Positions 161 through 28,940 of a stretch of 36,797 nucleotides of DNA are shown piece after piece. Where the stretch lies: contig JAFQED010000057.1 in NCBI GenBank assembly GCA_017415765.1, forward strand, positions 1 to 36,797. Direction: 5' to 3'. The notes below the pieces were generated by a model. That model searched no databases and was not told where the DNA came from. It saw only the letters and a list, made by a program, of their open reading frames with translations. Position 1 is the stretch's first letter. Each line of letters opens with the position of its first letter. A program made the translations under genes and the position numbers. Origin of the DNA: Desulfovibrio sp. Its GTDB lineage: Bacteria; Desulfobacterota; Desulfovibrionia; Desulfovibrionales; Desulfovibrionaceae.

Positions 161-347
161 TTGAAAATGGCAGTCGCTCTGGCGGACGCGCTTGTCCAGC
201 TTCGCTGGGAGAGCGGACGCCCGCGCCGTAAGCAAGCGGGACTTGTCCAGCCCGCTGGGAAACCGCGCTTTTCCCGCGCTTGTCCCGCCATGCGGGGAAG
301 CGTAGGCAGCGTGACGATTGAAACACAGAGTGTTTCAATCAAAAAAT
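161..347 (+). repeat. Dispersed hairpin repeat, copy A (longest copy)
   Basis: This stretch aligns over its length with 28806-28940 (same strand) and 1881-2014 (opposite strand), and its last third aligns with 11159-11205. Shared blocks in order are AATGGCAGTCGCTCTGGCGG, GAGCGGACGCCCGCGCCGT, a GCGGGA...TTCCCGC arm pair, GCGTAGGCAGCGT, and a perfect 11-bp stem GATTGAAACAC-AGA-GTGTTTCAATC (316-340) followed by an A-run. Compared with the other copies it carries three extra short hairpins (see 191-297). It codes for nothing recognisable and is not a T-tailed terminator on either strand. Confidence 0.85.
191..297 (+). repeat. Three 18-19 nt mini-hairpin insertions nested in repeat copy A
   Basis: Alignment with copy D (28806-28940) shows three extra segments in copy A: 191-209, 242-259 and 279-297. 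All begin CTTGTCC and each forms a small hairpin: CCAGC-TTC-GCTGG, CCAGC-C-GCTGG (minimal loop) and CCCGC-CAT-GCGGG. The flanks rejoin almost exactly as in the uninterrupted copies. The segments resemble each other more than their surroundings, so they look like repeated insertions of one small palindromic unit. The mechanism is unknown. Confidence 0.7.
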
Positions 348-384
348 GCACTAAAGAACCCCAATTTGGGGGTAGAAATGAAGA

Positions 385-419
385 AAGGGCTCATGTGCTG
401 AAATTACACATAAACCCTT
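385..419 (-). terminator. Probable terminator of tRNA-Thr
   Basis: Read on the minus strand, AAGGGTTTATGTG pairs with CACATGAGCCCTT to form a 13-bp stem (three G-U pairs) with a short AT-rich loop. It is followed by the pyrimidine-rich TCTTCATTTC. It begins 9 nt after the CCA end of the tRNA. Confidence 0.6.
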
Positions 420-427
420 GAATTTAT

Positions 428-503
428 TGGAGCCAGCTAAGAGACTTGAACTCTTGACCTGCTGATTACGAATCAGCTGCTCTACCAACTGAGCTAAGCT
501 GGC
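428..503 (-). tRNA. tRNA-Thr (anticodon CGU)
   Basis: The 76-nt minus-strand sequence folds as a complete cloverleaf. The acceptor stem is GCCAGCT/AGCTGGC, the D-arm is TAGCTCAGTTGGTAGAGCA, and the anticodon stem GCTGA/TCAGC has loop TTCGTAA. The T-arm contains GTTCAAGTC, and the 3' CCA is encoded. The anticodon CGT (plus-strand ACG at 468-470) reads the threonine codon ACG. Identity is by anticodon; the acceptor sequence was not compared with other tRNAs. Confidence 0.96.
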
Positions 504-533
504 ATGAGGAAACCTGTTTTCCGAACCAGGGTA

Positions 534-562
534 TAAATAGGGTAGAAAAAGGAAAAATGCAA
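534..562 (-). promoter_or_regulatory. Candidate promoter for tRNA-Thr
   Basis: On the minus strand TTGCAT and TATTTA are separated by 17 bp. This would place the start of transcription about 24 nt before the mature 5' end of the tRNA. Both boxes match the sigma-70 consensus only partly. Confidence 0.45.
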
Positions 563-633
563 GCCCTTTGTCCTCAAGCATCAGGGCAGACGTAGCTGGT
601 TTCCCGTGCATAGGAAGCATTTGGCACTTGCCC

Positions 634-666
634 AAAGGGGAGCAGCCCACACAGGCCCTCCCCTTT
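634..666 (-). terminator. Hairpin downstream of metK
   Basis: AAAGGGGAG (634-642) pairs perfectly with CTCCCCTTT (658-666) 22 nt past the metK stop. Read in the metK direction no T-run follows, while the opposite direction has TTTTGCTTTCT nearby. It is therefore a possible but non-canonical terminator. Confidence 0.4.
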
Positions 667-688
667 TGCTTTCTATGACTTATACTTG

Positions 689-1861
689 CTACACCTTGGC
701 GGCGGTACGCAGGTCGGCCACGGCGTTGGTGGATTCCCAGGTAAATTCGGGCAGTTCGCGGCCAAAATGCCCATAGCAGGAGGTCTTGGCATAGATGGGC
801 CGCTTGAGATCAAGGCGTTTGGTGATAAAGTAGGGACGCAGGTCAAAGACCTCACGCACGGCCCGCGTCAGCACTTCATCAGGAATTTCGCTACTGCCCT
901 GCGAGGACACCAGCACACTCACAGGCTGGGCCACACCGATGCAGTAGGCTATCTGCACTTCGCAGACAGGGGCCAGGCCGGCCGCCACTACATTCTTGGC
1001 GATGTAGCGGCCCATGTAGGCACCAGAACGGTCAACCTTGGAGGGATCCTTACCGGAGAAGGCCCCACCGCCGTGGTGGCCGCTGCCACCGTAGGTGTCC
1101 TGGATAATCTTGCGCCCGGTCAGGCCGCAGTCTCCCATGGGGCCGCCCACCACAAAACGCCCGGTGGTATTGATAAAAATTTCGCAGTCCTTTTCATCAA
1201 AGTAGCCAGAGGGTTCCAGAACGGGACGGATGACCTCGCGCCGCACGGCCTCGGCCACGTCGTCCTGGCTTACATGGGCCGCGTGCTGGGTGGAAACCAC
1301 CACATTATTGATACGCACGGGCTTGCCATCCTGATACTCAAAGGATACCTGGGTCTTTCCGTCGGGACGGAAGAAGTCCACAATGCCGTCCTTGCGCACC
1401 TTGGTCAGCCGCTGCGAAAGCTGATGCGCCCAGTAAATGGGGGCTGGCATCAGGGTAGCGGTTTCATTGCAGGCAAAACCAAACATCATGCCCTGGTCGC
1501 CCGCTCCCTGATCTTCAGGTGCGCTGCGCAGCACACCCTGGGCGATGTCCGGTGATTGGCGGTCAATGGAGGAAATGACCGCGCAGGTCTGCCAGTCGAA
1601 GCCCATTTCGGAGCTGTTGTAGCCAATCTCCTTGATGGTGTCACGCACAACGGTGGCAAAATCGGCGTAGCCACGGGTGCTGATCTCACCGGCAATAACG
1701 GCCATGCCGGTGGTCACAAGGGTTTCGCAAGCCACATGGGCATCGGGATCCTGTGCAAGGATCGTGTCAAGAATGGCATCGGAAATCTGGTCAGCCACCT
1801 TGTCAGGATGCCCTTCGGTGACGGATTCGGAAGTAAAGAAGTATTTGCCCTTGGTTTGCAT
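689..1861 (-). CDS. metK: S-adenosylmethionine synthetase
   Basis: MetK makes S-adenosylmethionine from methionine and ATP in the cytoplasm. The 390-aa product has the normal family length and its hallmark segments: [20 protein letters not shown] near the N-terminus, the [16 protein letters not shown] loop near residue 118, and the P-loop-like [19 protein letters not shown] about residues 265-283, followed by the [12 protein letters not shown] strand. The ATG at 1859-1861 lies behind AAGGAG with 6 nt spacing. Repeat copy B ends only about 20 nt upstream of the start codon, so its terminal hairpin is probably in the metK leader. No SAM riboswitch motif is visible. panC lies upstream on the same strand across the repeat. 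Confidence 0.97.
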
Positions 1862-1880
1862 GTCATGCTCCTTATACGCA

Positions 1881-2014
1881 TTTTTGATTGAACCACTCTG
1901 TGTTTCAATCGTTACGCTGCCTACGCTTCGCGGGAAAAACGTGCTTTTCCCGCTTGCTGACGGCGCGGGCGTCCGCTCAGGCGTCCGCCAGAGCGACTGC
2001 CATTGTCAATGGCA
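1881..2014 (-). repeat. Dispersed hairpin repeat, copy B (metK leader)
   Basis: Read on the minus strand this matches copy D almost base for base. It has TGCCATTG-T-CAATGGCA at its 5' end, then the CGCTCTGGCGGACGC and GAGCGGACGCCCGCGCC blocks, a GCGGGAAAA/TTTTCCCGC-type stem, GCGTAGGCAGCGT, and the terminal stem GATTGAAACAC/GTGGTTCAATC (one mismatch) with an A-run. It lacks the mini-hairpin insertions of copy A. It fills nearly the whole panC-metK gap. Confidence 0.85.
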
Positions 2015-2036
2015 TATCGCTCTCAGCCTACCCGCG

Positions 2037-2885
2037 TTACGGGCGCAGCAGGATATTGTCAATAAGCCGGGCCTTGCCCATGCGTACCGCACAGGCCATA
2101 AGCGCGGGGCCGTCCGTGGTGTCCAAAGCAGCCAATGTCTGCGGATGCACTATGGAAAGATAGTCAAGCCGCCCCAGAGGCAAATGCCGTACCCAATGTG
2201 CAAGCACCGCATCCCGGATGACCGGCACGCGGTTTTCTCCCCCTTCCACAAGACTGCGGGCCAAGAGCAGCCCCTGCTGGATGTGCGGGGCCTGGGCGCG
2301 CTCCTCTGGCGAAAGGTAGACGTTGCGGGAGGAAAGTGCCAGCCCGTCCTCCTCACGCACCGTGGGACGGGACTCGATGCGTACCGGCAGGTTCAGGTCA
2401 CGCACCATGCGCCGGATGATGGCCTGTTGCTGCCAGTCCTTTTGCCCGAATACGGCCACATCGGCCTGGCTCAGCATAAACAGCTTGAGAACCACCGTGC
2501 AGACCCCGCGAAAATGGATGGGCCGACTTTGCCCGCACAGACCACGGGCCAGCTCCGGCACTTCCACCCAGGTGGCGTGATCCGCAGCGTACATACTGCC
2601 CGGTTCCGGCATGAAGAGAGCATCGGCCCCCAGCTCACGTGCAATGGTGGCATCTCGCTCGGCATCACGCGGGTAGGCGGCAAGGTCTTCATCCGGACCA
2701 AATTGTGCAGGGTTCACAAAAAGGCTGACCACCATCCGGCGGGCAAGCCCACGCGCATGGCGCATCAGATCCATGTGTCCGGCATGGTAATAGCCCATGG
2801 TGGGTACAAGGGCGATGTCATCACCTGCCGTATGCCACTGGCGACACAGAGCCGCCAATTCTTGTGGAGAAGTTAATATCTGCAT
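2037..2885 (-). CDS. panC: Pantothenate synthetase
   Basis: PanC condenses pantoate with beta-alanine using ATP to give pantothenate, a coenzyme A precursor. The 282-aa product carries the family signatures in order. These are PTMGYYHAGH (28-37, containing the HxGH nucleotidyltransferase motif, with Tyr-Tyr where many family members have Asn-Leu), SLFVNPAQFGPDEDLAAYPR, the HFRGV substrate loop, FGQKDWQQ, and the REEDGLALSSRN (KMSKS-like) segment. Length is normal. No other pan gene is in the window. The gap to metK downstream is filled by repeat copy B. Confidence 0.97.
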   Translation of the reverse strand: MQILTSPQELAALCRQWHTAGDDIALVPTMGYYHAGHMDLMRHARGLARRMVVSLFVNPAQFGPDEDLAAYPRDAERDATIARELGADALFMPEPGSMYAADHATWVEVPELARGLCGQSRPIHFRGVCTVVLKLFMLSQADVAVFGQKDWQQQAIIRRMVRDLNLPVRIESRPTVREEDGLALSSRNVYLSPEERAQAPHIQQGLLLARSLVEGGENRVPVIRDAVLAHWVRHLPLGRLDYLSIVHPQTLAALDTTDGPALMACAVRMGKARLIDNILLRP

Positions 2886-3097
2886 ATCAAGGTATTGAGA
2901 TATAATCAGTGACCGGATGTTTATACACGCCCGGCTCTTTCTTGTAAAGAGGCAGACGTAAACCCAAACTTACCGGGCAACCTGCACCATGGACACCCCG
3001 CCATGCCATTGGCCTTGCCTCACCCCCGTTCACAAACATAACCCGACCTTGACCACGGGCCGGGCTTGCGGGCATAACAGGCCGCAGGAGGCCCACC

Positions 3098-3664
3098 ATG
3101 CTCAAACCCTTCTATCAGGGCAAGCTCGACACCTTCTGCGCCATCTATGCCGTGCTGAACGGCCTACGCCTTACCCACGGTATCCGTGTCTCACGGGCGC
3201 GTGACATCCTCAATGAAACCTTGCTGGCCCTGGCCGCCACTCCAGAGGCATTCCGCGCCGTACTGGAACAAAAAACCGACTATCTCCATTTGGTGGACGG
3301 CCTTTTGCGCGCTCAAAGCCGGGCCTTCCCCCTGGAAGTCATTCGCCCCTTCGAGCAGAGCCAGCCTCCGCCGGAGGAGCTTTGGCAGACCTTTCGACAG
3401 TGGCTTATCCCCGGCGCAAAACGGGCTGCCATCTTTCGCTTTACCCGCAGCATGTCGCCTGATGTGCCGCCGCTCAACCGCCACTGGACCACCGCCGACC
3501 GCATGGATGACGAGATCCTGCACCTTTTTGACTGTAGCCACGAGGCCGAGGCCATCCTCAACATCCGCAAGGACAGCTTTGTAACCCGGCCTGAGGCTGT
3601 CACTGCTGGTCGGCTGCTCTGCATCCTGCCGGAAAGTGTGCGCTTTTTGCGTCTGCCGTTCTGA
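3098..3664 (+). CDS. Small papain-like (putative cysteine peptidase fold) protein
   Basis: This 188-aa protein of unknown role begins behind AGGAGG with 6 nt spacing. Near the N-terminus it has GKLDTFCAIYAVLNGLRL (8-25), in which Cys14 sits at the start of a helix ending in Asn21. This resembles the catalytic-Cys helix of papain-like and C39-like peptidases. A His-Trp pair (129-130) and an LFDCS segment with Asp145 follow, which could supply the His and Asp of a Cys-His-Asp triad. No signal peptide or membrane segment is seen, so it should be cytoplasmic. It stands alone, divergent from panC, and ends at a strong terminator. The family assignment is inferred from motif order only. Confidence 0.7.
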   Translation: MLKPFYQGKLDTFCAIYAVLNGLRLTHGIRVSRARDILNETLLALAATPEAFRAVLEQKTDYLHLVDGLLRAQSRAFPLEVIRPFEQSQPPPEELWQTFRQWLIPGAKRAAIFRFTRSMSPDVPPLNRHWTTADRMDDEILHLFDCSHEAEAILNIRKDSFVTRPEAVTAGRLLCILPESVRFLRLPF

Positions 3665-3679
3665 GTAAGCACGTAAAGC

Positions 3680-3719
3680 ATAGAAGAGGGCCGCCCCAAT
3701 GGGGACGGCCCTCTTCTAT
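3680..3719. terminator. Bidirectional terminator
   Basis: ATAGAAGAGGGCCG (3680-3693) pairs perfectly with CGGCCCTCTTCTAT (3706-3719) around a C-rich/G-rich inner stem. It lies between two convergent genes, the papain-like gene and the S1 gene. Its A/T-ended arms suit termination in both directions. Confidence 0.88.
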
Positions 3720-3739
3720 ATTCCGAAAGGCGTTACAGC

Positions 3740-5446
3740 CTAGCTGTTTTCGCTTTCCTCAAACTTCTGCTTGAGCAGATCGCCCAGGCTCTGGCCGGAT
3801 TCCTGCGGGCCAGCGTGGAATTCCTTGGGCTTGCGCTCTTCTTCATCCCGTATCTGCTTGATGGAAAGACCCAGGCGGCGTTCCTCTGCACTGACATGGA
3901 TGACCTTGGCCTGGATCTCCTGCCCTTCCTTGAAGGATTCGGCCGGAGCCTTGACCTTTTTGCCGGAAAGTTCGGAAACGTGCACCAGCCCTTCAATGCC
4001 TTCTTCCACTTCCACAAAGAGGCCGAAGTCGGTGATATTGGTCACCGTACCGGTAACGGTGCAGCCCACGGGGTAGGTGGCAGGCACATGGCCCCACGGG
4101 TCATCACGCAGCTGCTTGACACCCAGGGTGAACTTTTCGTTTTCCTGATCCACGGTCAGCACCTTGGCCTGCACGATGTCACCGACCTTGTACAGCTCGC
4201 TGGGATGGCGCACCTTCTTGGTCCAGGAAATGTCAGAGACATGGATAAGGCCGTCAATACCGTCCTCGATACCGATGAACATACCGAATTCGGTGATATT
4301 CTTGATAGCACCTTCAAGGATGGTTCCTTCGGGGTACTTTTCGGCCACCAGTTCCCAGGGATTGGGCCGCACCTGCTTCATGCCGAGGCTGATGCGCTTC
4401 TTTTCGCCATCCACGCCAAGGATGACCACTTCCACTTCGTCACCGGTATGCACCATCTGGGAGGGGTGGCGCAGCTTGCGCGTCCAGGACATTTCGGAGA
4501 TGTGTACAAGACCTTCCACACCGGCTTCCAGTTCCACAAAGGCACCATAATCCACAAGATTGGTGACCTTACCTGTGCACTTGGCACCTTCGGGGAAGCG
4601 GGCAGAAATATCCTGCCACGGGTCGGGCACAAGCTGCTTGAGGCCCAGCGAGACCTTGTTGTTTTCGCGATCAAAGGAGAGCACTTTCAGGGTCAGATCC
4701 TGACCCATAGTGATCATTTCCTTGGGATGGCGGATGCGCTTCCAGCTCATGTCGGTGATGTGCAGCAGCCCGTCCAGCCCGCCAAGGTCAACAAAGACGC
4801 CGTACTCGGTGAGGTTCTTGGCCTTGCCCTGCACGATCTGGCCTTCCTCAAGGGTACGCAGCAGTTCCTGCCGTTTGGAATCGCGTTCTTCCTCAAGCAG
4901 CACACGACGCGAAACGATCACATTGCTGCGACGGCGGTTGATCTTGAGTACGCGGAACTCGAATTCCTGATTGACCAGGGCATCCATGTCAGGCACGGGG
5001 CGCAGATCCACATGCGAACCGGGCAAAAACGCCTCTACCCCGCCGATGTCCACAGTGTAACCGCCCTTGATGCGGCGCACGATATGGCCCTTGATGACCC
5101 TGTTGTTTTCCTGCACGTCTTCAAGCTGGTCAAAGACCTGCATGCGCTTGGCCTTCTCAAAGGACAGGGTGATGGTGCCGTCCATTTCGTTCTTGCGAAC
5201 TACATAGACGTCCACCTTGTCGCCCACGCTGACAACGAGGTTGCCGGCCGCATCGCGAAATTCTGCCGCAGGAATCTGCCCTTCGGACTTGAAGTTCACA
5301 TCCACCAGCACGCTGTCTTCATTAACGCGGACGATCTCGCCCTTGGTGATAGAGCCTTCCTCAAGGTCGCCAAAGTCAGGATTGAGGTAGTTTTCGAGGG
5401 CACTGCCGAAATCAATTTCGTCGTGCCCGGTTTCCTTGTCTGCCAT
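3740..5446 (-). CDS. rpsA: 30S ribosomal protein S1
   Basis: S1 binds mRNA on the small ribosomal subunit through repeated S1 (OB-fold) domains. The 568-aa product shows six such units. Units three to six are closely similar, each with a GxVxNxxxxGxFVxL/V core, an H-I/V-S/T-D/E-MSW or SDISW strand and an ending like xxxSLGxKQL. The acidic tail ends KQKFEESENS. The start chosen is the ATG at 5444-5446, 9 nt after GGAGG. The longer frame upstream would translate the ribosome binding site itself and begin with TTG. The gene is monocistronic: the qmo terminator lies upstream and a shared terminator downstream. Confidence 0.96.
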   Translation of the reverse strand: MADKETGHDEIDFGSALENYLNPDFGDLEEGSITKGEIVRVNEDSVLVDVNFKSEGQIPAAEFRDAAGNLVVSVGDKVDVYVVRKNEMDGTITLSFEKAKRMQVFDQLEDVQENNRVIKGHIVRRIKGGYTVDIGGVEAFLPGSHVDLRPVPDMDALVNQEFEFRVLKINRRRSNVIVSRRVLLEEERDSKRQELLRTLEEGQIVQGKAKNLTEYGVFVDLGGLDGLLHITDMSWKRIRHPKEMITMGQDLTLKVLSFDRENNKVSLGLKQLVPDPWQDISARFPEGAKCTGKVTNLVDYGAFVELEAGVEGLVHISEMSWTRKLRHPSQMVHTGDEVEVVILGVDGEKKRISLGMKQVRPNPWELVAEKYPEGTILEGAIKNITEFGMFIGIEDGIDGLIHVSDISWTKKVRHPSELYKVGDIVQAKVLTVDQENEKFTLGVKQLRDDPWGHVPATYPVGCTVTGTVTNITDFGLFVEVEEGIEGLVHVSELSGKKVKAPAESFKEGQEIQAKVIHVSAEERRLGLSIKQIRDEEERKPKEFHAGPQESGQSLGDLLKQKFEESENS

Positions 5447-5588
5447 GTTCCCAAGCCTCCACAAAAAATTTCCCTTCCCAAAAAGGGGTTTGAATAATTA
5501 GCAGGAAAGAACATGGAACACAAGAAAAATCTCTTGTCCGTTTCCCCTGGCCGGTGCAGCCCGCAGTGCAATGCGCGGGACTTTCCCA

Positions 5589-5622
5589 TAAAAGAGACCC
5601 CATCCTTCAGGATGGGGTCTCT
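5589..5622 (-). terminator. Terminator of the qmo operon
   Basis: A perfect 13-bp stem AGAGACCCCATCC/GGATGGGGTCTCT (5593-5605 with 5610-5622) with a 4-nt loop is followed on the minus strand by TTTTATGG. It lies 42 nt after the qmoD stop. Confidence 0.9.
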
Positions 5623-5664
5623 GTTTGCAAACAGCCGTACCAGTGCAGACTGTTTTCTGAAGTG

Positions 5665-6384
5665 TTAGAAGCCGAAGCCGTCGGAGTTGGCACCGGAGGA
5701 GCCGAAACCGAAGTCATCGGGCACACTGTTTTCTTCGGCCGGGGCAGCATCTGCCTCAGCAGCACCGGCGGCACCGGCAGCTACGCCACCAACCACCATG
5801 CCCTTGAGGCCGTCCTTGATGGCGTCCTTGATGTTCTGCATCAGGTCATCATGGCTGATGGCCACCTTACCCTGATATTCGGCAACCTGACGGCGCAGCC
5901 CGCCCATATCGGCGTTGAGGGTCTTGATCTTGCCTTCAAGCTCGTCCACCTTCTTCTGCAGGACTTCAGCCTGTCCCTGCCAGGGTTCAAGCTCCTGAAC
6001 GCGCTTTTCCAGTTCCACACAGGCTGCCGTCTGGGCAGCCAGGCTCTTGTCGCTTTCAGCCAGCCAGTCCAGCACCTTGGCGGTCATGGCCTTGGTAGGG
6101 CCATCCATGGGGGTAAGGGAGATATTGGCACCCAGGCTCTTGCTGGCACGGGCCACAAAGGCGTTCCAATCCTGTCCCTCGTTCCATTCCAGTTCCAGAA
6201 AACGGGGATACCAGCGGGCCAGCCAGCTCGCGGCAAACGGGGCAACGGCCTTGGCGCAACAGTCGCAGCCAATGCTACGCCCGGCCACATAACCGGCCAG
6301 ATCTTTCACATCCACGCCTTCCTTGCCCACAACGAGGGCCAGCACGGATTCTACGGAAAACACTTTGCGATTGCTATCAGACAT
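5665..6384 (-). CDS. qmoD: QmoD-like protein, last gene of the qmo operon
   Basis: This 239-aa protein of unknown biochemical role sits where Desulfovibrio genomes carry the promoter-distal gene after qmoABC (DVU0851 in D. vulgaris, from memory). It has no signal peptide or clear membrane span. Three cysteines (Cys40, 42, 43 in GCDCCAKA) could bind a metal or be redox active. Residues about 110-172 form heptad-rich coiled coil. An Ala/Gly-rich hinge (198-215) precedes an acidic tail ending in FGFGSSGANSDGFGF, a repeated FGF pattern. The start at 6384 follows GAGGAGGAGG with 5 nt spacing. Upstream in-frame extension would run back to the qmoC stop without a ribosome binding site. Confidence 0.82.
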   Translation of the reverse strand: MSDSNRKVFSVESVLALVVGKEGVDVKDLAGYVAGRSIGCDCCAKAVAPFAASWLARWYPRFLELEWNEGQDWNAFVARASKSLGANISLTPMDGPTKAMTAKVLDWLAESDKSLAAQTAACVELEKRVQELEPWQGQAEVLQKKVDELEGKIKTLNADMGGLRRQVAEYQGKVAISHDDLMQNIKDAIKDGLKGMVVGGVAAGAAGAAEADAAPAEENSVPDDFGFGSSGANSDGFGF

Positions 6385-6438
6385 GGCGGCCTCCTCCTCG
6401 GAGATCGATTTTGTTGATTCGTTTACACCCGGCTGCAA

Positions 6439-7617
6439 CTAGCGCCCGTACATCCGCACATAGACCAGAGCCGCCGTGCGATAGACGAAGTGCCCCAGCT
6501 TGGACCACGGCAAGTAGGCAAAGAGCATCCAGACAAAGACCAGATGCAGGTAGTACACCACGAAGGCCGGTTCGATGACATCAGCCAGACGCAGGCACTG
6601 GGCCAACACGCCAGTGACGGCCACCAGCCAGATGATGCCCAGCAGATACCAGTCATAGTAGCTGGAGACCTGCTTTGCCGGGTTGAGGCACATGCGCCGC
6701 CAGGTCAGGACAGCAAGGCCAGCCAGCAACATCAATGCGCCGATGTTGGCCAGGATCTTGACCGGGAAGGTCAGCGGCATGGGCGTTTCGATCTTGATCA
6801 TCGGAATGACCTTGCCGCCCCAGTGACCAATGGCCACCACTGCCGTCACAAAGGCCAGGATGCAGAAGCTGTACACCAGCAGCATGTGCCCGTTCTTGCG
6901 ATTGGGCGCACTTTTTTGTGTTGCCGGGCCGTCATCGCAATCATCAAACTTGCGGTGGGTGATGACTTCATCCCACAGAACGTCCCAAAGATGCCAGATC
7001 CAGCTCTTGGTTTTACCGATAACGGTCAACCCGCCTTCGGGCTTGAACATGGCCCAAAGTTTCATCACGCCGCGCATCAGGATGAAGCAGGCCCCGAAGA
7101 AGGTCAGCATGAAGATGGGGTCAATGGTGTAGTCACCATAGAATATCTGACCAAAGACGATACGGCCGTTGGCAGCGCGGGGGAACCATTCACCGCCATT
7201 GTAACCGGCGCGGATCCACCAGACCACCAACCAGAGAAGAGCTGGGATGGCAAAGAGGAAGGGCAGGCCGGAGGGCTTGCTCATCCACTTGCCAATGATG
7301 GAGGGCGAGGTCAGATCCTTGTAGATAACGTTGCGGGCTGCGGCCATCATGTCTGCGGGCTTGGCCCCACGCGGGCAAAGGTCGGAGCAGTTGCCGCAGT
7401 TGTGGCAAAGCCAGAGATCCACATCGGCTTGCAGCTTGTCCTTGAGGCCCCACGAAGCCCAGACCATTTCCTTGCGCGGATAGGGCGCATTGGCCGGGGC
7501 CATGGGGCAGGCCACGGAACAGGTGGCGCACTGGAAGCACTTTTTGAGGGATTCGCCCCCGGCTTCCGTCAACGCTCTGGTAAATTCCGTATCCGGTTTG
7601 AGTGTACACTGTGCCAT
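6439..7617 (-). CDS. qmoC: Quinone-interacting membrane-bound oxidoreductase subunit C
   Basis: QmoC is the membrane anchor that exchanges electrons with menaquinol for AprBA through QmoA/B. It fuses an HdrC-like soluble head to an HdrE/NarI-like cytochrome b domain. The 392-aa product shows two [4Fe-4S] sites, Cys27/30/33/37 and Cys71/74/77/81. About six hydrophobic spans follow, with histidines that could hold heme b, and the C-terminus is basic. The start at 7617 is 9 nt after AGGAGG; an ATG nine bases upstream is too close to that site. The ribosome binding site overlaps the qmoB stop codon, which suggests translational coupling. Confidence 0.95.
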   Translation of the reverse strand: MAQCTLKPDTEFTRALTEAGGESLKKCFQCATCSVACPMAPANAPYPRKEMVWASWGLKDKLQADVDLWLCHNCGNCSDLCPRGAKPADMMAAARNVIYKDLTSPSIIGKWMSKPSGLPFLFAIPALLWLVVWWIRAGYNGGEWFPRAANGRIVFGQIFYGDYTIDPIFMLTFFGACFILMRGVMKLWAMFKPEGGLTVIGKTKSWIWHLWDVLWDEVITHRKFDDCDDGPATQKSAPNRKNGHMLLVYSFCILAFVTAVVAIGHWGGKVIPMIKIETPMPLTFPVKILANIGALMLLAGLAVLTWRRMCLNPAKQVSSYYDWYLLGIIWLVAVTGVLAQCLRLADVIEPAFVVYYLHLVFVWMLFAYLPWSKLGHFVYRTAALVYVRMYGR

Positions 7618-7630
7618 TGCTGCCATCCTC

Positions 7631-9892: not shown

Positions 9893-9897
9893 GCCGC

Positions 9898-11133: not shown

Positions 11134-11158
11134 CCTTGATATCCTCCTGCATTAGAGC

Positions 11159-11260
11159 TTTTTTTGATCGAAACACGCTGTGTTCCAATCCATACGCTGC
11201 CTGGGCTTCCCAGAAGCGGCAGCCATCGCCCAAAGGGCTTACGGATGGCCTCAGCCATCC
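11159..11260 (-). repeat. Dispersed hairpin repeat, copy C (diverged, qmoA leader)
   Basis: Read on the minus strand, the segment AGGCAGCGTATGGATTGGAACACAGC continuing to GATCAAAAAA matches the conserved tail of copies A, B and D, with two mismatches in the terminal stem. The upstream part differs in sequence but keeps the same design of small hairpins: GGATGGC-CTCA-GCCATCC (11243-11260), GCCC-AAA-GGGC (about 11228-11238) and CTGGG-CTT-CCCAG (11201-11213). The A-run end lies about 25 nt before the qmoA start codon. Confidence 0.65.
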
Positions 11261-11290
11261 CATTGACTGGCTGGTACATCAGGCCAGTAT

Positions 11291-18178: not shown

Positions 18179-18216
18179 GGGCGGAGAGGAAGAAATTTCC
18201 TCTCTGCCCCTTTTTT
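18179..18216 (+). terminator. Terminator of the aminotransferase gene
   Basis: GGGCGGAGAGGAA pairs with TTCCTCTCTGCCC (one G-U pair) and is followed by CTTTTTTG. Confidence 0.88.
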
Positions 18217-18267
18217 GTCAATGCGCACGAAGCATGAACAGGCTGGGGCATTTTTGAGGAGGCAAAC

Positions 18268-19785: not shown

Positions 19786-19827
19786 GCTGGACTTTCCGCA
19801 GCATGTGGGGTGTCAGCAGTTTTTTGG

Positions 19828-19856
19828 GGGCGGCAAATCTTGCCGCCCTCTTGCTT
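19828..19856 (+). terminator. Terminator of flgE
   Basis: GGGCGGCAA-ATC-TTGCCGCCC is a perfect 9-bp stem followed by TCTTGCTT. Confidence 0.85.
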
Positions 19857-19950
19857 GCCCCAAAGCCGGACTTGGGATAGGCTTTTTTTGCCATGCCTAC
19901 CCTCCGGCGGCAGGGCAAAGGGCGGCTTTGCAGCAGCCCAAGGAGAAGAT

Positions 19951-21269: not shown

Positions 21270-21277
21270 TCTTGTTT

Positions 21278-21299
21278 ATCGCATCTGCGATTGTTTTTT
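21278..21299 (+). terminator. Probable terminator of aroEQ
   Basis: A short stem ATCGC-ATCT-GCGAT is followed by TGTTTTTTG, 9 nt after the aroQ stop. The stem is only 5 bp, so termination may be partial. Confidence 0.55.
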
Positions 21300-21356
21300 G
21301 GGGGGATTTCCGGCTATGAACACTACTCTGCTCTCACCTTCAACCAGAGAGTTGCC

Positions 21357-21956: not shown

Positions 21957-22846
21957 GTGTTGTTTCCTTTGCCTATTATCCGGGCTGTTCTGCCAAGGGA
22001 TCCTCGGCAGACTATGAAAGATCCACCCGCACGGTCTGTGGCCTGTTGGATATCTGCCTGGAAGAGCTGCCCGGCTGGAACTGCTGTGGCTCTACCCCGG
22101 CCCATGCTGTGGACACAGAACTTTCGGCGGCCCTGTGTGTACGCAATCTGGACATTGCGGCCCAATGCGGTGCCAAAACCGTGCTGACTCCCTGCCCGTC
22201 CTGTCTTTCCAACCTGCGTCATGCGGGCAGACGCATGGCAACGCCGGAATTCCGCGCCCGCGTCAATGAGCTGCTGGACGCACCAGCGGCCGAAACCTTG
22301 CCGGAAGTGACTTCCGTCATGCAGGGCATTGCCCGACAGTATGACAAGGCCGCCCTGACTGCCAGGGTCAAAAAGCCCCTCACAGGTCTGCGGCTGGGGG
22401 CCTATTACGGCTGCCTGATGAGCCGCCCGGCAGACCTGATGGACTTTGGCGACCCGGAAAATCCGACCCTGATGGAAGAAATGCTGACAGCCTGCGGGGC
22501 AGAGGTGGTGGATTTTCCCCTCAAGACCAGCTGTTGTGGGGCCTCCTTTGGCATACCGGAACGCCCCATGACTGCCCGCAATTCTGCCAAAATACTGGAT
22601 CTGGCCGTCAATATGGGGCTGGACGCGCTGGTGGTGGCCTGCCCTCTCTGCCAGATGAATCTGGACTTGCGGCAAAAACAGGCTGCCAAAAGCGCGGGCA
22701 CAACCTTCGATTTGCCCGTACCCTACTTTACCCAGTTGCTGGGGCTGGCCCTGGGTGCCCCTACCGACCAGCTGGGGCTGGACAAGCTGTGTGTCAGCCT
22801 TGACGGCCTCTTGAAAAAAGCAGAAGGAGGCCAGCAATGCGGATAG
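21953..22846 (+). CDS. hdrB: Heterodisulfide reductase-like subunit B of the Flx-Hdr complex
   Basis: HdrB is the subunit that reduces a disulfide using two non-cubane [4Fe-4S] clusters. Both CCG domains are complete in the 297-aa product: Cys12, Cys44-Cys45, Cys81 and Cys84, then Cys154, Cys194-Cys195, Cys230 and Cys233. This suggests an active enzyme. The natural substrate in sulfate reducers is thought to be a DsrC-type trisulfide/disulfide or a related carrier, which the sequence does not settle. It overlaps hdrC by 4 bp and hdrA by 10 bp. Confidence 0.94.
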   Translation: MSVVSFAYYPGCSAKGSSADYERSTRTVCGLLDICLEELPGWNCCGSTPAHAVDTELSAALCVRNLDIAAQCGAKTVLTPCPSCLSNLRHAGRRMATPEFRARVNELLDAPAAETLPEVTSVMQGIARQYDKAALTARVKKPLTGLRLGAYYGCLMSRPADLMDFGDPENPTLMEEMLTACGAEVVDFPLKTSCCGASFGIPERPMTARNSAKILDLAVNMGLDALVVACPLCQMNLDLRQKQAAKSAGTTFDLPVPYFTQLLGLALGAPTDQLGLDKLCVSLDGLLKKAEGGQQCG

Positions 22847-24798
22847 GCGTTTTTATCTGTCACTGCGGCAGCAATATCGGTGGCACGGTGGACTGCGCCA
22901 GAGTGGCCGAACTTTCCCGTGCCTTCCCTGATGTGGTCTATGCCGATGATCCCATGTACACCTGTGCCGAGCCGGGACAGGCTGCCATAGAGGCCGCCAT
23001 CCACGAGCACAGGCTGGACGGCGTTGTGGTGGCCTCCTGTACGCCCAGGATGCACGAACCCACCTTCCGCCGCACGGTGGAAAGGGCCGGCCTGAACCGC
23101 TATATGTTCGAGATGGCCAATATCCGCGAGCATGTCTCATGGATAGGCAAGGACAAGGAGGCCAATACCAACAAGGCCGCCGAGCTGGTGCTGATGGCTG
23201 TGGAAAAGCTGCGCCGCAACACACCGCTGACGCCCAAGTCCTTTGACATCACCAAGAAGGTACTGATCATCGGCGGAGGTGTGGCGGGTATCCAGGCCGC
23301 GCTGGACTGTGCCGATGGCGGCGTTCCCGTGGTGCTGGTAGAACGCGAGGCCACCATCGGCGGCAAGATGGCCAAGCTGGACAAGACCTTCCCCACGGTG
23401 GACTGCTCGGCTTGTATCCTTGGCCCCAAGATGGTGGACGTGGCCCAGCACCCCAATATCACCCTGTACGCCTATGCGGAAGTAGAGGATATTTCCGGCT
23501 ATGTGGGCAATTTTTCTGTAAAAATCCGCAAGAAAGCCGCCTATGTGGACTGGAGCAAATGCACCGGCTGTGGGGCCTGTACCGAAAAATGCCCGGCCCG
23601 CAAAACCCCTGATGCCTTTAATGAACTGACCGGCCCCACCACGGCTATCAATATCGCCTTCCCGCAGGCCATCCCCAAGAAGGCGGTCATCAATGCCGCA
23701 CACTGCCGCCAGCTCAGCAAGGGCAAATGCGGTGTTTGCGCCAAGGTCTGCCCCACCGGGGCCATCCGCTACGATATGGAGGATGAGATTGTCACCGAGG
23801 AAGTGGGCAGCATCGTGGCTGCCACCGGCTATGACCTCATGGACTGGACGGTGTACAGTGAATACGGTGGCGGCAAATATCCCGATGTCATCACCTCGCT
23901 CCAGTACGAGCGGCTGCTCTCGGCCTCTGGCCCTACGGGCGGGCATATCCTGCGCCCCTCGGACGGACGCGAGCCCAAGAGCGTGGTATTTATCCAATGT
24001 GTCGGATCGCGTGACAAGTCCGTAGGGCGGCCCTACTGTTCCGGCTTTTGCTGCATGTACACAGCCAAGCAGGCCGTGCTGACCAAGGATCACATCCCGG
24101 ATTCACAGTCCTGGGTCTTCTACATGGACATCCGCGCCCCCGGCAAGATGTACGACGAGTTCACCCGCCGCGCTGTGGAGGAATACGGCACGGAGTACAT
24201 CCGTGGGCGCGTCTCTGCCATTTATCCTGACGGCAAGGGACAGTATGTGGTCATGGGGGTGGATACCCTGCTGGGGCAGCCTGTGGAGATCAAGGCCGAC
24301 CTCGTGGTACTGGCCGTGGGTATCGAAGCCAGCAAGGGCGCATCCCAACTGGCAGAAAAGCTGCGTATCTCCTACGATCAATACGGCTTCTTCATGGAGA
24401 GCCACGTCAAGCTCAAGCCGGTGGAAACCAATACCGCCGGGGTTTTTCTGGCGGGCGTCTGCCAGGGGGCCAAGGACATCCCTGCCTCGGTGGCCCAGGG
24501 TTCGGCTGCGGCGGCCAAGGTGCTGGCTCTCTTTGCCCGCGACAAACTGGAAAGCGACCCCCAGATAGCCCAGGTGGATATGCGCCGCTGTGTCAACTGC
24601 GGCAAGTGTATCCGCTGCTGCCCCTTCGGGGCCATCAAGGAAGTGGAAATGCGCGGCGAGGGCAAGGCACAGGTCATTGAAACCGTCTGTCAGGGCTGCG
24701 GCCTGTGCACGGCCACCTGTCCGCAGGGGGCTATCCAGCTCTCACACGCCACCGACAATCAGATTCTTGCGGAGGTCAACGCGCTATGCCAGTGCTAG
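22837..24798 (+). CDS. hdrA: Heterodisulfide reductase-like subunit A (flavin-bifurcating)
   Basis: HdrA holds the FAD at which electrons from NADH (through Flx) are expected to split between ferredoxin and HdrB. The 653-aa product has an N-terminal domain with its own Cys set (Cys8, 10, 20, 43, 68). The FAD Rossmann motif VLIIGGGVAGIQAA lies at 142-155. A ferredoxin-like insertion has Cys242/245/248/252 and Cys290/298/301/305. The core YCSGFCCM (400-407) and two C-terminal [4Fe-4S] sites (Cys585/588/591/595 and Cys618/621/624/628) follow. This is the full-length archetype, unlike the shorter QmoA/QmoB. It overlaps the next gene by 13 bp. Confidence 0.95.
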   Translation: MRIGVFICHCGSNIGGTVDCARVAELSRAFPDVVYADDPMYTCAEPGQAAIEAAIHEHRLDGVVVASCTPRMHEPTFRRTVERAGLNRYMFEMANIREHVSWIGKDKEANTNKAAELVLMAVEKLRRNTPLTPKSFDITKKVLIIGGGVAGIQAALDCADGGVPVVLVEREATIGGKMAKLDKTFPTVDCSACILGPKMVDVAQHPNITLYAYAEVEDISGYVGNFSVKIRKKAAYVDWSKCTGCGACTEKCPARKTPDAFNELTGPTTAINIAFPQAIPKKAVINAAHCRQLSKGKCGVCAKVCPTGAIRYDMEDEIVTEEVGSIVAATGYDLMDWTVYSEYGGGKYPDVITSLQYERLLSASGPTGGHILRPSDGREPKSVVFIQCVGSRDKSVGRPYCSGFCCMYTAKQAVLTKDHIPDSQSWVFYMDIRAPGKMYDEFTRRAVEEYGTEYIRGRVSAIYPDGKGQYVVMGVDTLLGQPVEIKADLVVLAVGIEASKGASQLAEKLRISYDQYGFFMESHVKLKPVETNTAGVFLAGVCQGAKDIPASVAQGSAAAAKVLALFARDKLESDPQIAQVDMRRCVNCGKCIRCCPFGAIKEVEMRGEGKAQVIETVCQGCGLCTATCPQGAIQLSHATDNQILAEVNALCQC

Positions 24799-26234
24799 AA
24801 GGCAAAGAACTGCGGATCGTGGGTTTTCTCTGCAACTGGTGTTCCTATGGAGGGGCCGATACGGCCGGTGTAGCCCGCGCCGGTCAGCCCACAGACCTGC
24901 GCATCATCCGCGTTCCCTGTTCGGGCCGCATCGACCCGCTGTTTATCGTCAAGGCCCTGCTGGGCGGGGCTGACGGCGTACTGGTGTCAGGCTGTCACCC
25001 ACGGGACTGCCACTATGCGGCGGGCAACTTTTATGCGCGGCGCAGGCTGGAAGTGCTCAAACAGTTTTTGCCCGTGCTGGGCATTGACGAGCGGCGTTTC
25101 GAGTACACCTGGGTTTCGGCATCCGAAGGGCAACGCTGGCAGCAGGTGGTCACGGTCTTTACCGAGCGCATCCATCAGCTGGGCCGTGCCCCGCGTTTTG
25201 ACGATGCCGAACCTCTGCTCAAGCTGGCGGATATGGCCCTCACCTCCTTGCGTCCCCTGGGCACAGGCCAAACAGCCGCCCTGGACGAACTCAAGGACGC
25301 CATCAGGGCCAAACTGCCCGAACTGGATTGCGTCATCGGCTGGCAGCAGGGCTATGATGCGGCCCATACCGTGCCGCTCTTCATCCGCAAGCCGGAAGAT
25401 GTGGACAAGCTGGTCTGGGGGCCGTTCAATGTCAACAATCCCGCCGTGTACCTACCCTCCTTCAAGGGCAAGAAGGTGGGCATTGTGGTCAAGGGCTGCG
25501 ATTCCCGCTCGGTGGTGGAACTGTTGCAGGAAAACCTCATCCGGCGCGAGGATGTGACCATCTTTGCCCTGCCCTGTGAAGGCACGCTGGACATGGCCCG
25601 CGTCAACGAAAAACTGGGCCGCTATCAGCGCATTGACAGCGTCAGCCTTGATGAGGCCGGGGCCACCATCGTGGCAGACGGCACGGAACACCGCTTCTGC
25701 ATGACGGAATATGCCCAGGGCAAATGCTATGGCTGTACCACCCCTGCGGCAGTGCTGGCTGATACCCGTCTGGGGACGCCCACGCCGGTGCAGCCCGGTA
25801 CTGTCGTCCCACCGGAGCTGGCCCTGCTGGACAGCATGAGCCTTGAAGAGCGTATGGCCTTCTGGCGTGGACAGATGGAACGCTGCCTGCGCTGCTATGC
25901 CTGCCGCAATGCCTGTCCCATGTGCGTCTGCCGGGATTTCTGCATTTCTGACAGCCGAAACCCGCACTGGATGAGCCAGGAGGACAGCCCCCGCGAAAAA
26001 CTCTTTTTCCAGACCATCCACGCCATGCACCTGGCCGGGCGTTGCACGGGCTGTGGCGAATGTCAGCGGGCCTGTCCCGTGGGTATCCCGATACTTGCCC
26101 TGCGTCAGCAGATCGCACGCGCCGTGGCCCAGCTCTTTGACGGCTACAGGCCCGGCCTTGATCCCGCAGCCGTGCCTCCCTTGCTGGGCTATGAGGTGGA
26201 GGAGAAGAACATCCATGAGAGGGACTGGAAATGA
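24786..26234 (+). CDS. flxCD: FlxD-FlxC fusion: MvhD-like domain joined to an iron-sulfur dehydrogenase subunit
   Basis: This 482-aa protein has residues 1-140 as an MvhD-type domain (Cys16, 19, 45, 70, 75; SGCHPRDCHYAAGN) that docks an electron donor onto HdrA. Residues about 165-482 resemble the FdhB/FrhB-like iron-sulfur subunit FlxC. They contain VVKGCDSRSVVELLQEN, LPCEGTLDM, Cys305/314/317 and two ferredoxin sites (Cys367/370/373/377; Cys420/423/426/430), with extra cysteines CVCRDFC next to the first. In the clusters I know of, FlxC and FlxD are mostly separate chains; here they are one frame without a stop. Start: ATG at 24786 behind GGAGG (10 nt), inside the end of hdrA. Coupled to flxB by ATGA. 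Confidence 0.88.
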   Translation: MPVLEGKELRIVGFLCNWCSYGGADTAGVARAGQPTDLRIIRVPCSGRIDPLFIVKALLGGADGVLVSGCHPRDCHYAAGNFYARRRLEVLKQFLPVLGIDERRFEYTWVSASEGQRWQQVVTVFTERIHQLGRAPRFDDAEPLLKLADMALTSLRPLGTGQTAALDELKDAIRAKLPELDCVIGWQQGYDAAHTVPLFIRKPEDVDKLVWGPFNVNNPAVYLPSFKGKKVGIVVKGCDSRSVVELLQENLIRREDVTIFALPCEGTLDMARVNEKLGRYQRIDSVSLDEAGATIVADGTEHRFCMTEYAQGKCYGCTTPAAVLADTRLGTPTPVQPGTVVPPELALLDSMSLEERMAFWRGQMERCLRCYACRNACPMCVCRDFCISDSRNPHWMSQEDSPREKLFFQTIHAMHLAGRCTGCGECQRACPVGIPILALRQQIARAVAQLFDGYRPGLDPAAVPPLLGYEVEEKNIHERDWK

Positions 26235-27298
26235 GCATGATCCGTTTTGTGACTGCCGATGGTCTGCCCGGCTTTCTGGCCCATCTCGCCAAAGACGGGC
26301 AGCGCGTGCTGGTTCCGGTAGAAAAACCGGCCAACAAGCCTTCTGTGGTGTTTGAACCCTGGCAGGAGGGCAAAGCCTTTACCCTGGCCAAGGCCACTGT
26401 CCCGCCCAAGGAAGCCGTACTGCCCCAGTGCGAGACCCTGTTCAGCTTCAAAAAGGCCAAGGATCCGGCCGACCCCGCCAGGGTCAGTCTGCAACTGGAG
26501 GAAGCCCCTCCGCCACCGCCCACTGTGGTCTTTGCCTGCCGCCCCTGCGATGCACGCGGCTTTGCCGTGCTGGACAGGCCCTATCTGCACGGGCCCTTTG
26601 CAGACCCCTGCTACAAGGCCCGGCGTGAGGCCCTGACTGTCATCACCCTCACCTGTGCCAGTGGCTGCAATACCTGCTTTTGCCATTGGGTGGGGGGCGG
26701 CCCTTCCTCCCCTGAAGGTTCGGACGTGCTGATGACCGCCATTGAAGGGGGCTACGTCCTGCAAGCCATCACCCCCAGGGGGGAAGCCTGCCTTGCAGCC
26801 TCTGCCCTGCCTGACGGAGCAGAAGTCTTCCCCAGGGCAGAAGAAGCCCGCAAGGCAGCCTGGCAAAGCCTGGAGCCTGCGCCTGATCTCAAGGACGCCC
26901 CCCAACGGCTGGCCGCGCTTTTTACAGACACGACCTTCTGGCAGGAGCAGACCGACCGCTGCCTGTCCTGCGGGGCGTGTACCTACTTCTGCCCCACCTG
27001 CTACTGCTTCAACATCACTGACGAAGGCGAGGGCCTGAGTGAAAAGGGAGGCCGGCGTCTGCGCAGCTGGGACAACTGCATGTCATCCCTCTTTACCCGC
27101 GAGGCCAGCGGACACAATCCGCGCAACGCAAAGGCCCTGCGGATGCGAAACCGCGTTTCGCACAAGTTTGCCACCTATCCCGAAAACTGGGGCAGTTTTT
27201 CCTGTAACGGCTGTGGCCGCTGCATCAGCAACTGCCCGGTATGTCTGGATATACGCGCCATAGTACTTGCTGCACTGGAGAAAGGAGCTGACGCATGA
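26231..27298 (+). CDS. flxB: Flx complex iron-sulfur subunit B
   Basis: FlxB is an electron-transfer subunit similar to the beta subunits of soluble hydrogenases and to AsrA of anaerobic sulfite reductase. The 355-aa product has VFACRPCDARGFAVLDR (100-116) and a Cys group at 142/146/149/151 typical of the family's N-terminal half. Two [4Fe-4S] sites follow at Cys244/247/250/254 (CLSCGACTYFCP) and Cys325/328/331/335 (CNGCGRCISNCP). It should link the FlxA flavin to FlxC/D. It overlaps both neighbours by ATGA, so stoichiometric translation is likely. Confidence 0.9.
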   Translation: MSMIRFVTADGLPGFLAHLAKDGQRVLVPVEKPANKPSVVFEPWQEGKAFTLAKATVPPKEAVLPQCETLFSFKKAKDPADPARVSLQLEEAPPPPPTVVFACRPCDARGFAVLDRPYLHGPFADPCYKARREALTVITLTCASGCNTCFCHWVGGGPSSPEGSDVLMTAIEGGYVLQAITPRGEACLAASALPDGAEVFPRAEEARKAAWQSLEPAPDLKDAPQRLAALFTDTTFWQEQTDRCLSCGACTYFCPTCYCFNITDEGEGLSEKGGRRLRSWDNCMSSLFTREASGHNPRNAKALRMRNRVSHKFATYPENWGSFSCNGCGRCISNCPVCLDIRAIVLAALEKGADA

Positions 27299-28182
27299 GC
27301 GGCACGAAGACCCAACAGACCATGCTGCGGGAGATAAGCCCACGCCCCATGCCTGACGGCAATCCTTATCTGCCCATGCCCGCCACTGTGGCAGAGGTCA
27401 TTCAGGAAACCGGCAATATCAAAACCATGCGCGTGGTGCTGGACGATGCCGAGGCCATGCGCCAATTTGTGTATGAACCGGGCCAGGTGGGGCAGCTTTC
27501 GGTCTTTGGCGCGGGGGAATCCACCTTTGTCATCAACTCTCCGCCCTCCCAAAAGGACTACCTGCAATTTTCCGTCATGCAGGCCGGTGAGGTCACGGCG
27601 GCCATCCATCGCCTGTCCCCCGGAGACAAGGTTGGGGTACGCGCCCCGCTGGGCAATTACTTTCCCTATGCGGACTGGAAGGGCAAGGATGTCTTTTTTG
27701 TGGGCGGCGGCATCGGCATGGCCCCCATCCGTACCATCATGCTGCACTTGCTGGAACACAAGGACGACTACGGCAAGGTGAGCCTGCTCTATGGCGCACG
27801 CAGCCCGCGTGACATGGCCTACAGTTATGAACTGGATGACTGGCTGCGTCGCCCTGACCTTGACTGTACCCTCTGCATCGATGCCCCCTTTGAGGGATGG
27901 GAACACAAGGTGGGGCTTATCCCCAACGTGCTGCTGGAGCTGGCCCCCAGCCCGGCCAACTGTGTGGCCGTGCTTTGCGGCCCGCCCATCATGATCAAGT
28001 TTACGGTGCAGGCCCTGGAAAAACTGGGCTTCGCACCGGAAAACATCGTGACCACGCTGGAAAAACGCATGAAATGCGGTATCGGCATTTGTGGCCGCTG
28101 CAACATTGGCGGGCGTTATGTCTGCATTGATGGCCCCGTGTTCACATGGAAGGAATTACAGGCCCTGCCGCCGGAACTCTGA
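27295..28182 (+). CDS. flxA: Flx complex NADH-oxidising flavoprotein A
   Basis: FlxA is a ferredoxin-NAD(P) reductase-type subunit expected to oxidise NADH. In the 295-aa product, an FAD-binding barrel (about 30-125) contains the FVINSPPS segment in place of the classical RxYS. The nucleotide domain carries FFVGGGIGMAPIR (134-146) and LCGPPIMI. A PyrK-like [2Fe-2S] ligand set closes it (Cys261, 266, 269, 277 in CGIGICGRCN...YVC). It is last in the hdrCBA-flxCD-flxB-flxA operon. In D. vulgaris a similar cluster is associated with alcohol oxidation; no alcohol dehydrogenase gene is in this window. Confidence 0.92.
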   Translation: MSGTKTQQTMLREISPRPMPDGNPYLPMPATVAEVIQETGNIKTMRVVLDDAEAMRQFVYEPGQVGQLSVFGAGESTFVINSPPSQKDYLQFSVMQAGEVTAAIHRLSPGDKVGVRAPLGNYFPYADWKGKDVFFVGGGIGMAPIRTIMLHLLEHKDDYGKVSLLYGARSPRDMAYSYELDDWLRRPDLDCTLCIDAPFEGWEHKVGLIPNVLLELAPSPANCVAVLCGPPIMIKFTVQALEKLGFAPENIVTTLEKRMKCGIGICGRCNIGGRYVCIDGPVFTWKELQALPPEL

Positions 28183-28237
28183 TCACGTCCTTGTCCGCTC
28201 CATGCAGGAAAGGATGTCCCGAAGCCAAGGAGAACTG

Positions 28238-28786
28238 ATGCAAAAACTCTTGTCTTGCTGCTGCCTCTGCGCCCTGCTGGCGGGCTTGCCCGTCATGGCC
28301 GGAGCAGCCAATGCCAAAATAGACCCGGAAAGCTATATCTGCGCCGAACTGGTGGCCCTGGCCAGCACCGAAAGCGATGGCCCGTTGTTCGAGGCCCTGC
28401 AACTGGACGGCTATGCCGCCGCAGCCCTGGAACAGGATCTGGCCGTGCCGGAGGCCCTTGCCCCCCTTGCCATGCAGGTGGTTGCCATCTGTCAGGCCCA
28501 TCCGACAGAAAAGGTCAGCACTGTCTGGCAGGATGTACGCAAGCAGGCCGTCTTCCCCAGGGGCGGGCCGTGGCAGGCAGAGCGCGTGCCCTGCAAGACG
28601 TATAATGACAACCCTGATGAGGGCAGTGGCTTCCCTGTCTGGCTGGATGGCTACAATCGGCAAAAAAGCGGCACAACTGCGTCCATCCTGGAGAACAATG
28701 AAACCTACCAGAGCTTTTTACAGGCCTGTAGCCGCAAACCCGAAGCCCGCATGCTGGACGTGCTGCGCGAACAGTTGCAGCAGTAG
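28238..28786 (+). CDS. Secreted protein with two HdeA-like units
   Basis: This 182-aa predicted periplasmic protein has a signal peptide of about 26 residues (LLSCCCLCALLAGL core, cleavage after AANA). The mature chain contains the same pattern twice: Cys35 - LDGY (56-59) - Cys85-x3-Pro, and Cys119 - LDGY (136-139) - Cys164-x3-Pro. Cysteine spacing and the C...GY...C...P layout recall the acid-stress chaperone HdeA, which has one disulfide per unit. The longer frame upstream would overlap flxA; the start at 28238 follows AAGGAG by 5 nt. It lies 55 nt after flxA with no terminator between, so it may be cotranscribed. The family call rests on pattern only. Confidence 0.72.
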   Translation: MQKLLSCCCLCALLAGLPVMAGAANAKIDPESYICAELVALASTESDGPLFEALQLDGYAAAALEQDLAVPEALAPLAMQVVAICQAHPTEKVSTVWQDVRKQAVFPRGGPWQAERVPCKTYNDNPDEGSGFPVWLDGYNRQKSGTTASILENNETYQSFLQACSRKPEARMLDVLREQLQQ

Positions 28787-28805
28787 GCACTGGCTGTAGA
28801 GCTAA

Positions 28806-28940
28806 ATGCCATTGAAAATGGCAGTTGCTCTGGCGGACGCGAGAGCGGACGCCCGCGCCGTCAGCAAGCGGGAAAACCGCGTTTTTCCCGCGAAGCGTAG
28901 GCAGCGTGACGATTGAAACACAGAGTGTTTCAATCAAAAA
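28806..28940 (+). repeat. Dispersed hairpin repeat, copy D
   Basis: This is the cleanest copy on the plus strand. It contains TGCCATT-GAA-AATGGCA, GCTCTGGCGGACGC, GAGCGGACGCCCGCGCCGTC, GCGGGAAAA...TTTTCCCGC, GCGTAGGCAGCGT and the perfect stem GATTGAAACAC-AGA-GTGTTTCAATC (28911-28935) plus an A-run. It lies between the HdeA-like gene and the convergent ackA terminator, so here it is not in the leader of any gene. Confidence 0.85.

Follow-up and report, generated by a model that had tools for sequence, protein, structure and literature searches.

A modular multi-hairpin repeat of Desulfovibrio, probably a superfamily of IS630/Tc1-mariner-type MITEs

A stretch of 36,797 nucleotides of contig JAFQED010000057.1 of a Desulfovibrio sp. 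genome (assembly GCA_017415765.1), hereafter called the window, carries four copies of a short repeat built of small hairpins, which lie beside the core genes metK, panC, aprA, and ackA and are designated A to D. These repeats are probably a superfamily of non-autonomous miniature inverted-repeat transposable elements (MITEs) of the IS630/Tc1-mariner type. The initial annotation of the window had marked hairpin repeats at these four places, and all four match a covariance model of the family (scores in Table 1). Twenty-five copies went into the model: 13 from the window's genome (B and D included), 3 from genome G063, 6 from Desulfovibrio sp. ZJ369, and 3 from genome G012; copies A and C are outside those 25 rows. 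The conserved tail and the small hairpins upstream of it, as first described, are real, but they belong to a larger unit of ∼150 bp bounded by TA-GAGC and GCTC-TA, and the element ends lie outside the earlier limits for D and partly so for A to C. Copies A, B, and D, first called near-identical, share 87 to 92% pairwise identity. Copy C, said to keep the design but not the sequence, is 63 to 67% identical to the other three; it retains the right end and the tail hairpin but differs in its left part, where the TAGAGC end was not seen. The first ∼15 bases at the left end of copy A are degraded, the left TA of copy B is altered, and the right TA of copy D has become TG.

Well-kept copies begin with TAGAGCG and end in ...ATGCTCTA, with TA at both ends, and the unit reads TA-GAGCG-(hairpin 1)-GGCGGACGC-(hairpin 2)-GCCCGCGCCG-(stem with hairpin 3)-GTAGGCAGCG-(tail hairpin)-AAAAATGCTC-TA. 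The basic form, 149 to 152 bp in length with four hairpins, is too short for a transposase gene. Longer copies fall into classes of 169 to 171, 187 to 191, and 208 to 209 bp, with composites reaching 309 bp. An optional module, a hairpin of 18 to 19 bp of the form CTTGTCCNGC-loop-GCNGGG, occurs at up to three fixed places; among 51 copies, 19 have no module, 30 fall into nine combinations, and the modules of the other 2 were not assigned to a site. The extra length of copy A consists of three such modules inserted into the common plan. The first module is inverted in copy L068, and the third module of Desulfovibrio sp. ZJ369 copies occupies the corresponding position and is doubled in some of them. 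The tail stem of four copies (L069, L074, L087, and L104) is interrupted by a 48-bp insert, and a module related to that insert adjoins the left hairpin of L002. Solo left-hairpin copies, 36 to 37 bp long and bounded by TA, are also present. A second pool of modules (GCCGTTGCGACGAAGGAAGC... type), common to several species, was seen beside or inside L002, L078, L080, L127, and L133.

Table 1. Positions of the repeat copies and of their parts in the window
Feature	Position	Strand	Description and basis
Copy A	150..353	+	All three optional modules present; covariance model, 73 bits
Copy B	1873..2024	-	Basic form without modules, panC/metK intergenic; covariance model, 156 bits at 1874-2024
Copy C	11153..11275	-	Divergent; covariance model, 34 bits, E = 2e-7
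Copy D	28797..28947	+	Basic form; unnamed open reading frame on one side, ackA on the other; covariance model, 169 bits
Module M1, copy A	191..209	+	CTTGTCCAGC-TTC-GCTGGG hairpin; sequence and module counts
Module M2, copy A	242..259	+	CTTGTCCAGC-CC-GCTGGG hairpin; sequence and module counts
Module M3, copy A	279..297	+	CTTGTCCCGC-CAT-GCGGGG hairpin; sequence and module counts
Tail hairpin, copy A	316..340	+	GATTGAAACAC-AGA-GTGTTTCAATC; tail pattern exact at 302-340
Left TA-GAGC end and first hairpin, copy D	28797..28831	+	RNA fold and cross-species alignment
Tail hairpin, copy D	28911..28935	+	RNA fold; tail pattern at 28897-28935

The repeat is abundant in its own genome. In the assembly of 2.10 Mb and 74 contigs there are 54 tail sites with three or fewer mismatches, 46 of them exact, and a reversed control pattern gave none, which speaks against chance and bears out the early suggestion of many copies genome-wide. 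Distinct copies number somewhat fewer than 54, since some sites are halves of one copy located at contig ends and one or more pairs were counted twice (L010 and L040, which have the same flank). Several contigs of this genome begin or end inside a copy. For tests of flanks and ends we used the 85 of 198 model matches, from this genome and its relatives, that have both ends recognizable. The flanks differ in all 85, so the repeats are not one segmental duplication but, as first proposed, a dispersed family. The tail sequence is nearly private to the species, being found with two or fewer mismatches in 6 of 79 same-genus genomes (G000 included). The covariance model reaches further, with matches in 49 of those 79 genomes and in 82 of 348 genomes of the order; the 82 with listed matches belong to a single family and are spread over 14 of 59 genera. 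The genus search scored no more than 38 candidates per genome, a ceiling that twelve same-genus genomes reach, and the order search no more than 8, so that counts are lower bounds; although both searches were strictly filtered, some of the weak matches close to the cutoff may be spurious. Among named genomes, a pattern scan returned 32 stretches, of which 27 are in Desulfovibrio sp. ZJ369, 2 in Desulfovibrionaceae bacterium A70_62_DF_DSS, and 1 in a further Desulfovibrionaceae record; the remaining 2, from other phyla, look like chance.

Target sites point to the manner of insertion. Two copies are nested in other repeats whose unoccupied versions are available, L004 in the window's genome (compared with L002, L024, L078, and L080) and L175 in Desulfovibrio sp. 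ZJ369 (compared with L151), and both comparisons show a single TA at the unoccupied site and two at the occupied one. Transposases of the IS630/Tc1-mariner type insert at TA and duplicate it, according to the relevant part of PMC2170065, and the duplication seen at the two empty sites thus fits DDE transposases of this type. The preferred target is YTAR, with T or C before the TA in 69 of the 85 copies and A or G after it in 80. Some copies supply a neighboring open reading frame (ORF) with its TAG stop codon, at the left end in 9 copies and at the right end in 3, or 12 of the 49 counted from a set of 53 after exclusion of two false joins and two copies truncated by the end of a contig; the copies L020, L009, L017, and L027 in G000 are among them. 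Removing one TA rebuilds TAA or TAG in all 12. We rejected this as independent proof of TA duplication because in all 37 copies examined in the window's genome the right TA is in any case followed by a purine.

Several further traits agree with those of bacterial MITEs. The repeat is short, non-coding, and dispersed, and TAGAGC at both ends makes a terminal inverted repeat, with right ends in the window's genome varying among TCTA, TATA, ACTA, and CTTA. It is also highly base paired. The predicted RNA fold of the + strand of copy D reaches -70.4 kcal/mol (z = -6.8) with the hairpins of the repeat visible, that of the - strand is weaker (-64.1 kcal/mol, z = -5.6), and copy A folds with z = -3.6, a value equaled by 1 of 200 shuffles. 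AT richness was not found: mean GC content is 0.557 in 37 copies of the window's genome, 0.531 in the 60-bp flanks, and 0.594 in the window. The definition of MITEs as AT-rich comes from PMC3049150, in whose pertinent sections RUP and SPRITE are called AT-rich and BOX is given no GC figure, so this trait does not appear to be kept by every element so classed.

The stems differ between species yet stay paired. In a plain MAFFT alignment of the 25 copies, where hairpin 1 is misaligned in three G012 rows, 96.3% of cells pair. Both sides changed in 13 of 39 pairs (shuffles averaged 9.7 and reached 13 in 3 of 500 trials; slid partners gave 2 to 4), and 74 cells changed on both sides (22.4 in shuffles, with 0 of 500 as high; 2 to 17 with slid partners). 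A larger alignment gave both-side changes in 37 of 39 pairs (19 to 31 with slid partners) and in 619 cells (43 to 180). For both alignments the structure used in counting came from the very sequences that were counted, and the larger alignment had been fitted to it. The compensatory changes for which the initial annotation proposed a test are present, in a modular, mobile-looking family that has no gene of its own. Template-switching DNA repair of hairpins could also keep the arms complementary.

The link to IS630 comes from relatives that carry full-length IS630-family insertion sequences (ISs) of 993 to 998 bp with TAGAG at both ends. The transposase ORF is uninterrupted in two of these, L186 (G071) and L209 (G063), and broken in two others, one in G012 and L210 of ZJ369. 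The L186 and L209 transposases match NF033545, the IS630 family, with E values of 8e-57 and 7e-58. The ends of the repeat resemble those of the IS630 of the same host in each of three genomes: the left end of the G012 element agrees with its own IS at 20 of 21 bases (and with the G071 IS terminus at 21 of 21), the G071 element end agrees with its own IS at 19 of 21, and the right end of the ZJ369 element agrees with the IS right end there at 16 of 17. For the element types of all three, the lowest E values fall at IS termini. IS630 looks high-copy in ZJ369 (G025) and seems to break that assembly; there are 49 IS630 matches, at least 16 of which begin no more than 10 bases from the start of a contig.

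A number of observations weigh against an IS630 origin. A strong end match is limited to relatives because, for the element type of the window itself, the best match at an IS terminus (11 of 11 bases, E = 0.11) ties with an internal chance hit. The window's genome has IS630 remnants only, without identified ends; these are three DDE_3 matches, one under the family cutoff, and the two that were compared are 39 to 50% identical to the transposases of relatives. Only two clean empty sites were found among the 85 copies, both within other repeats, the inverted repeat common to the two ends is short, and the element body is unlike the IS interior. In the MAFFT alignment, the count of further pair types, 26, is not above that of shuffles (24.4; 107 of 500). 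Among the element-rich genomes, defined as those with at least 10 model matches in the genus search, 12 of 20 have no IS630 relative, including the single-contig G007 and G058, and the presence of DDE_3 is not associated with copy number (7 of 20 element-rich genomes versus 21 of 59 others). One of the remnants in the window's genome abuts a copy of the repeat: at ∼1277 to 1675 of locus L018 (G000:C32) an IS630 transposase fragment ends where an element copy is inserted, and no continuation of the transposase was found in the 30 bases past the other end of the element.

The element-rich genomes without IS630, two of them single contigs, could mean that the mobilizer was a different DDE transposase, encoded by an unseen IS with the same ends. 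We consider this unlikely, since IS630 ends match the elements wherever an IS was compared and no other candidate was seen in the families searched, DDE_3/IS630 and Y1. We read those genomes instead as having lost the partner after amplification, an unseen transposase being the other possibility.

It could also be that the repeat is primarily a conserved regulatory RNA, located in 3' untranslated regions (3' UTRs) or between cistrons, with mobility secondary. Its covarying stems and the better fold of the + strand fit such a role, as does its orientation. On mechanical ORF calls, the 85 copies turn their left end toward the 3' end of the neighboring ORF in 42 cases versus 13 (p = 0.0001), and copies between co-directional ORFs are sense in 18 cases and antisense in 4 (p = 0.004); the corresponding counts from two further ORF callers, applied to overlapping sets, were 17 and 4 and 14 and 2. 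No ORF was found to read through any of the 85 copies, but the element holds stop codons, so split genes may still be among the insertions. An RNA role is suggested mainly by orientation, because G-U does not significantly exceed A-C at the pairs (24 to 13, p = 0.10, in the best 58 of 90 rows, 56 distinct; 73 to 52, p = 0.07, in the best 85 of 108 rows, 80 distinct). Moreover, module content varies freely, and G063, G032, and other relatives lack an element at the site of copy B, their intergenic DNA being too diverged to yield the exact junction. Rfam gave only a tRNA in the window and nothing over the element there or at six other loci. On balance, a primarily regulatory RNA seems improbable to us. 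A role of the copy D tail hairpin as an intrinsic terminator was rejected, as it is followed by A on the + strand. A scan of 28700 to 29100 found two terminator-like sites on the - strand, at 28967 to 28999 and at 28943 to 28960, the latter overlapping the last bases of copy D, and one promoter-like match over its tail, at 28913 to 28941.

The suggestion in the initial annotation that a REP-associated transposase acts in trans is not supported. Movement as REP/REPIN-type elements, in which a tyrosine (Y1) transposase of the RAYT/IS200 type recognizes the hairpins and transfers single-stranded DNA, seems to us highly improbable: hairpins are conserved near both ends, GTAG precedes the tail region in the window's species, and 13 of 20 element-rich genomes have Y1 matches, but the GTAG is not retained in copies of other species, the 91%-complete genome of the window gave no Y1 match (a control search was positive in 5 of 14 genomes), TA is duplicated at empty sites, and none of the eight Y1 loci fetched from relatives is bounded by the element. 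At two of the eight, a copy or fragment of the element lies on a single side, at a distance of ∼0.5 kb; other GC-rich hairpins flank the three loci for which the surrounding sequence was inspected. In the single-contig genome G007, 10 of 13 Y1 (IS200-type) matches score identically, which looks like a separate recent IS expansion.

If the repeats are IS630-type MITEs, an IS630-type transposase would have bound their short ends, excised the element, and inserted it into a TA with duplication of that dinucleotide, and the autonomous partner would later have decayed in the window's genome. The bodies may have diversified by gaining and losing small hairpin modules and by replacing stem arms in pairs. 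Surviving copies are mostly intergenic, with the left end preferentially facing the 3' end of a gene, so that many would enter transcripts as structured 3' or intercistronic segments of mRNA.

Several known repeats are comparable, as far as the sections of the cited papers that treat them allow. RUP, which is paired with IS630-Spn1, is likewise a short, gene-less repeat with a TA target and ends like those of an IS630 of the same host (PMC2229807, PMC3049150), but it measures ∼107 bp and occurs almost exclusively in S. pneumoniae and S. mitis, whereas the Desulfovibrio repeat is modular, has four hairpins and rewritten stems, and extends over 14 genera of one family. Correia/NEMIS of Neisseria is described in PMC2229807 and PMC2817692 as an IS630-type MITE with terminal TA and forms of ∼107 and ∼155 bp that differ by an internal block; its terminal inverted repeats are 24 bp long, while the two ends of the Desulfovibrio repeat share ∼6 bp and then continue into different hairpins. 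The BOX element of Streptococcus (PMC3049150) is modular, with boxA, a variable boxB, and boxC, and has terminal inverted repeats, a target site duplication, and structure when transcribed. In that account, its variation consists of absent or repeated boxB in the middle and it resembles ISSpn2 at a lower level, in contrast to one kind of module at three separate sites, a 48-bp tail-stem insert in four copies, and IS630-like ends; the resemblance is architectural only. REP/REPIN-RAYT systems are also high-copy extragenic palindromes in which complementary changes keep the pairing, but the pertinent parts of PMC2817692 and PMC3733652 tie them to Y1 transposases of the IS200/IS605 type, unlike a repeat that duplicates TA in a genome negative for Y1. 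ERIC, compared by its description in PMC2229807 only, is ∼127 bp long with terminal TA, a 7-bp terminal inverted repeat, and an orientation-dependent effect on transcripts; modularity is not among the traits described for it there. Short TA-duplicating MITEs linked to IS630 are thus already known (RUP, Correia), as are modular ones (BOX). A literature search over titles and abstract openings, with subscription journals mostly outside its scope, found no paper on this Desulfovibrio repeat, and as far as that search goes the novelty lies in the combination of these features, in a body of several covarying hairpins, and in the distribution across a single family.

It is conceivable, though we hold it only tentatively, that these repeats form a mobile multi-hairpin superfamily family-wide, with arm-by-arm replacement of stems under a constant fold, growth by hairpins inserted into hairpins, and retention in the sense orientation behind genes, so that a selfish IS630 MITE has become a recurrent structural element of 3' UTRs or intercistronic regions throughout the Desulfovibrionaceae. 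The repeats offer a large natural series in which MITE ends, body modules, and the host IS630 can be compared across genomes, and it permits asking how MITE bodies arise and why stems covary in mobile DNA. The copies also break genome assemblies. On either side of copy C lie aprA and an HdrA-like gene, which belong to sulfate respiration; the latter we take to be of the QmoA type. A structured insertion at that position could affect the co-expression of sulfate-respiration genes. More generally, the copies in the window may be co-transcribed with the core genes that they adjoin, and they may therefore affect mRNA processing in sulfate reducers.

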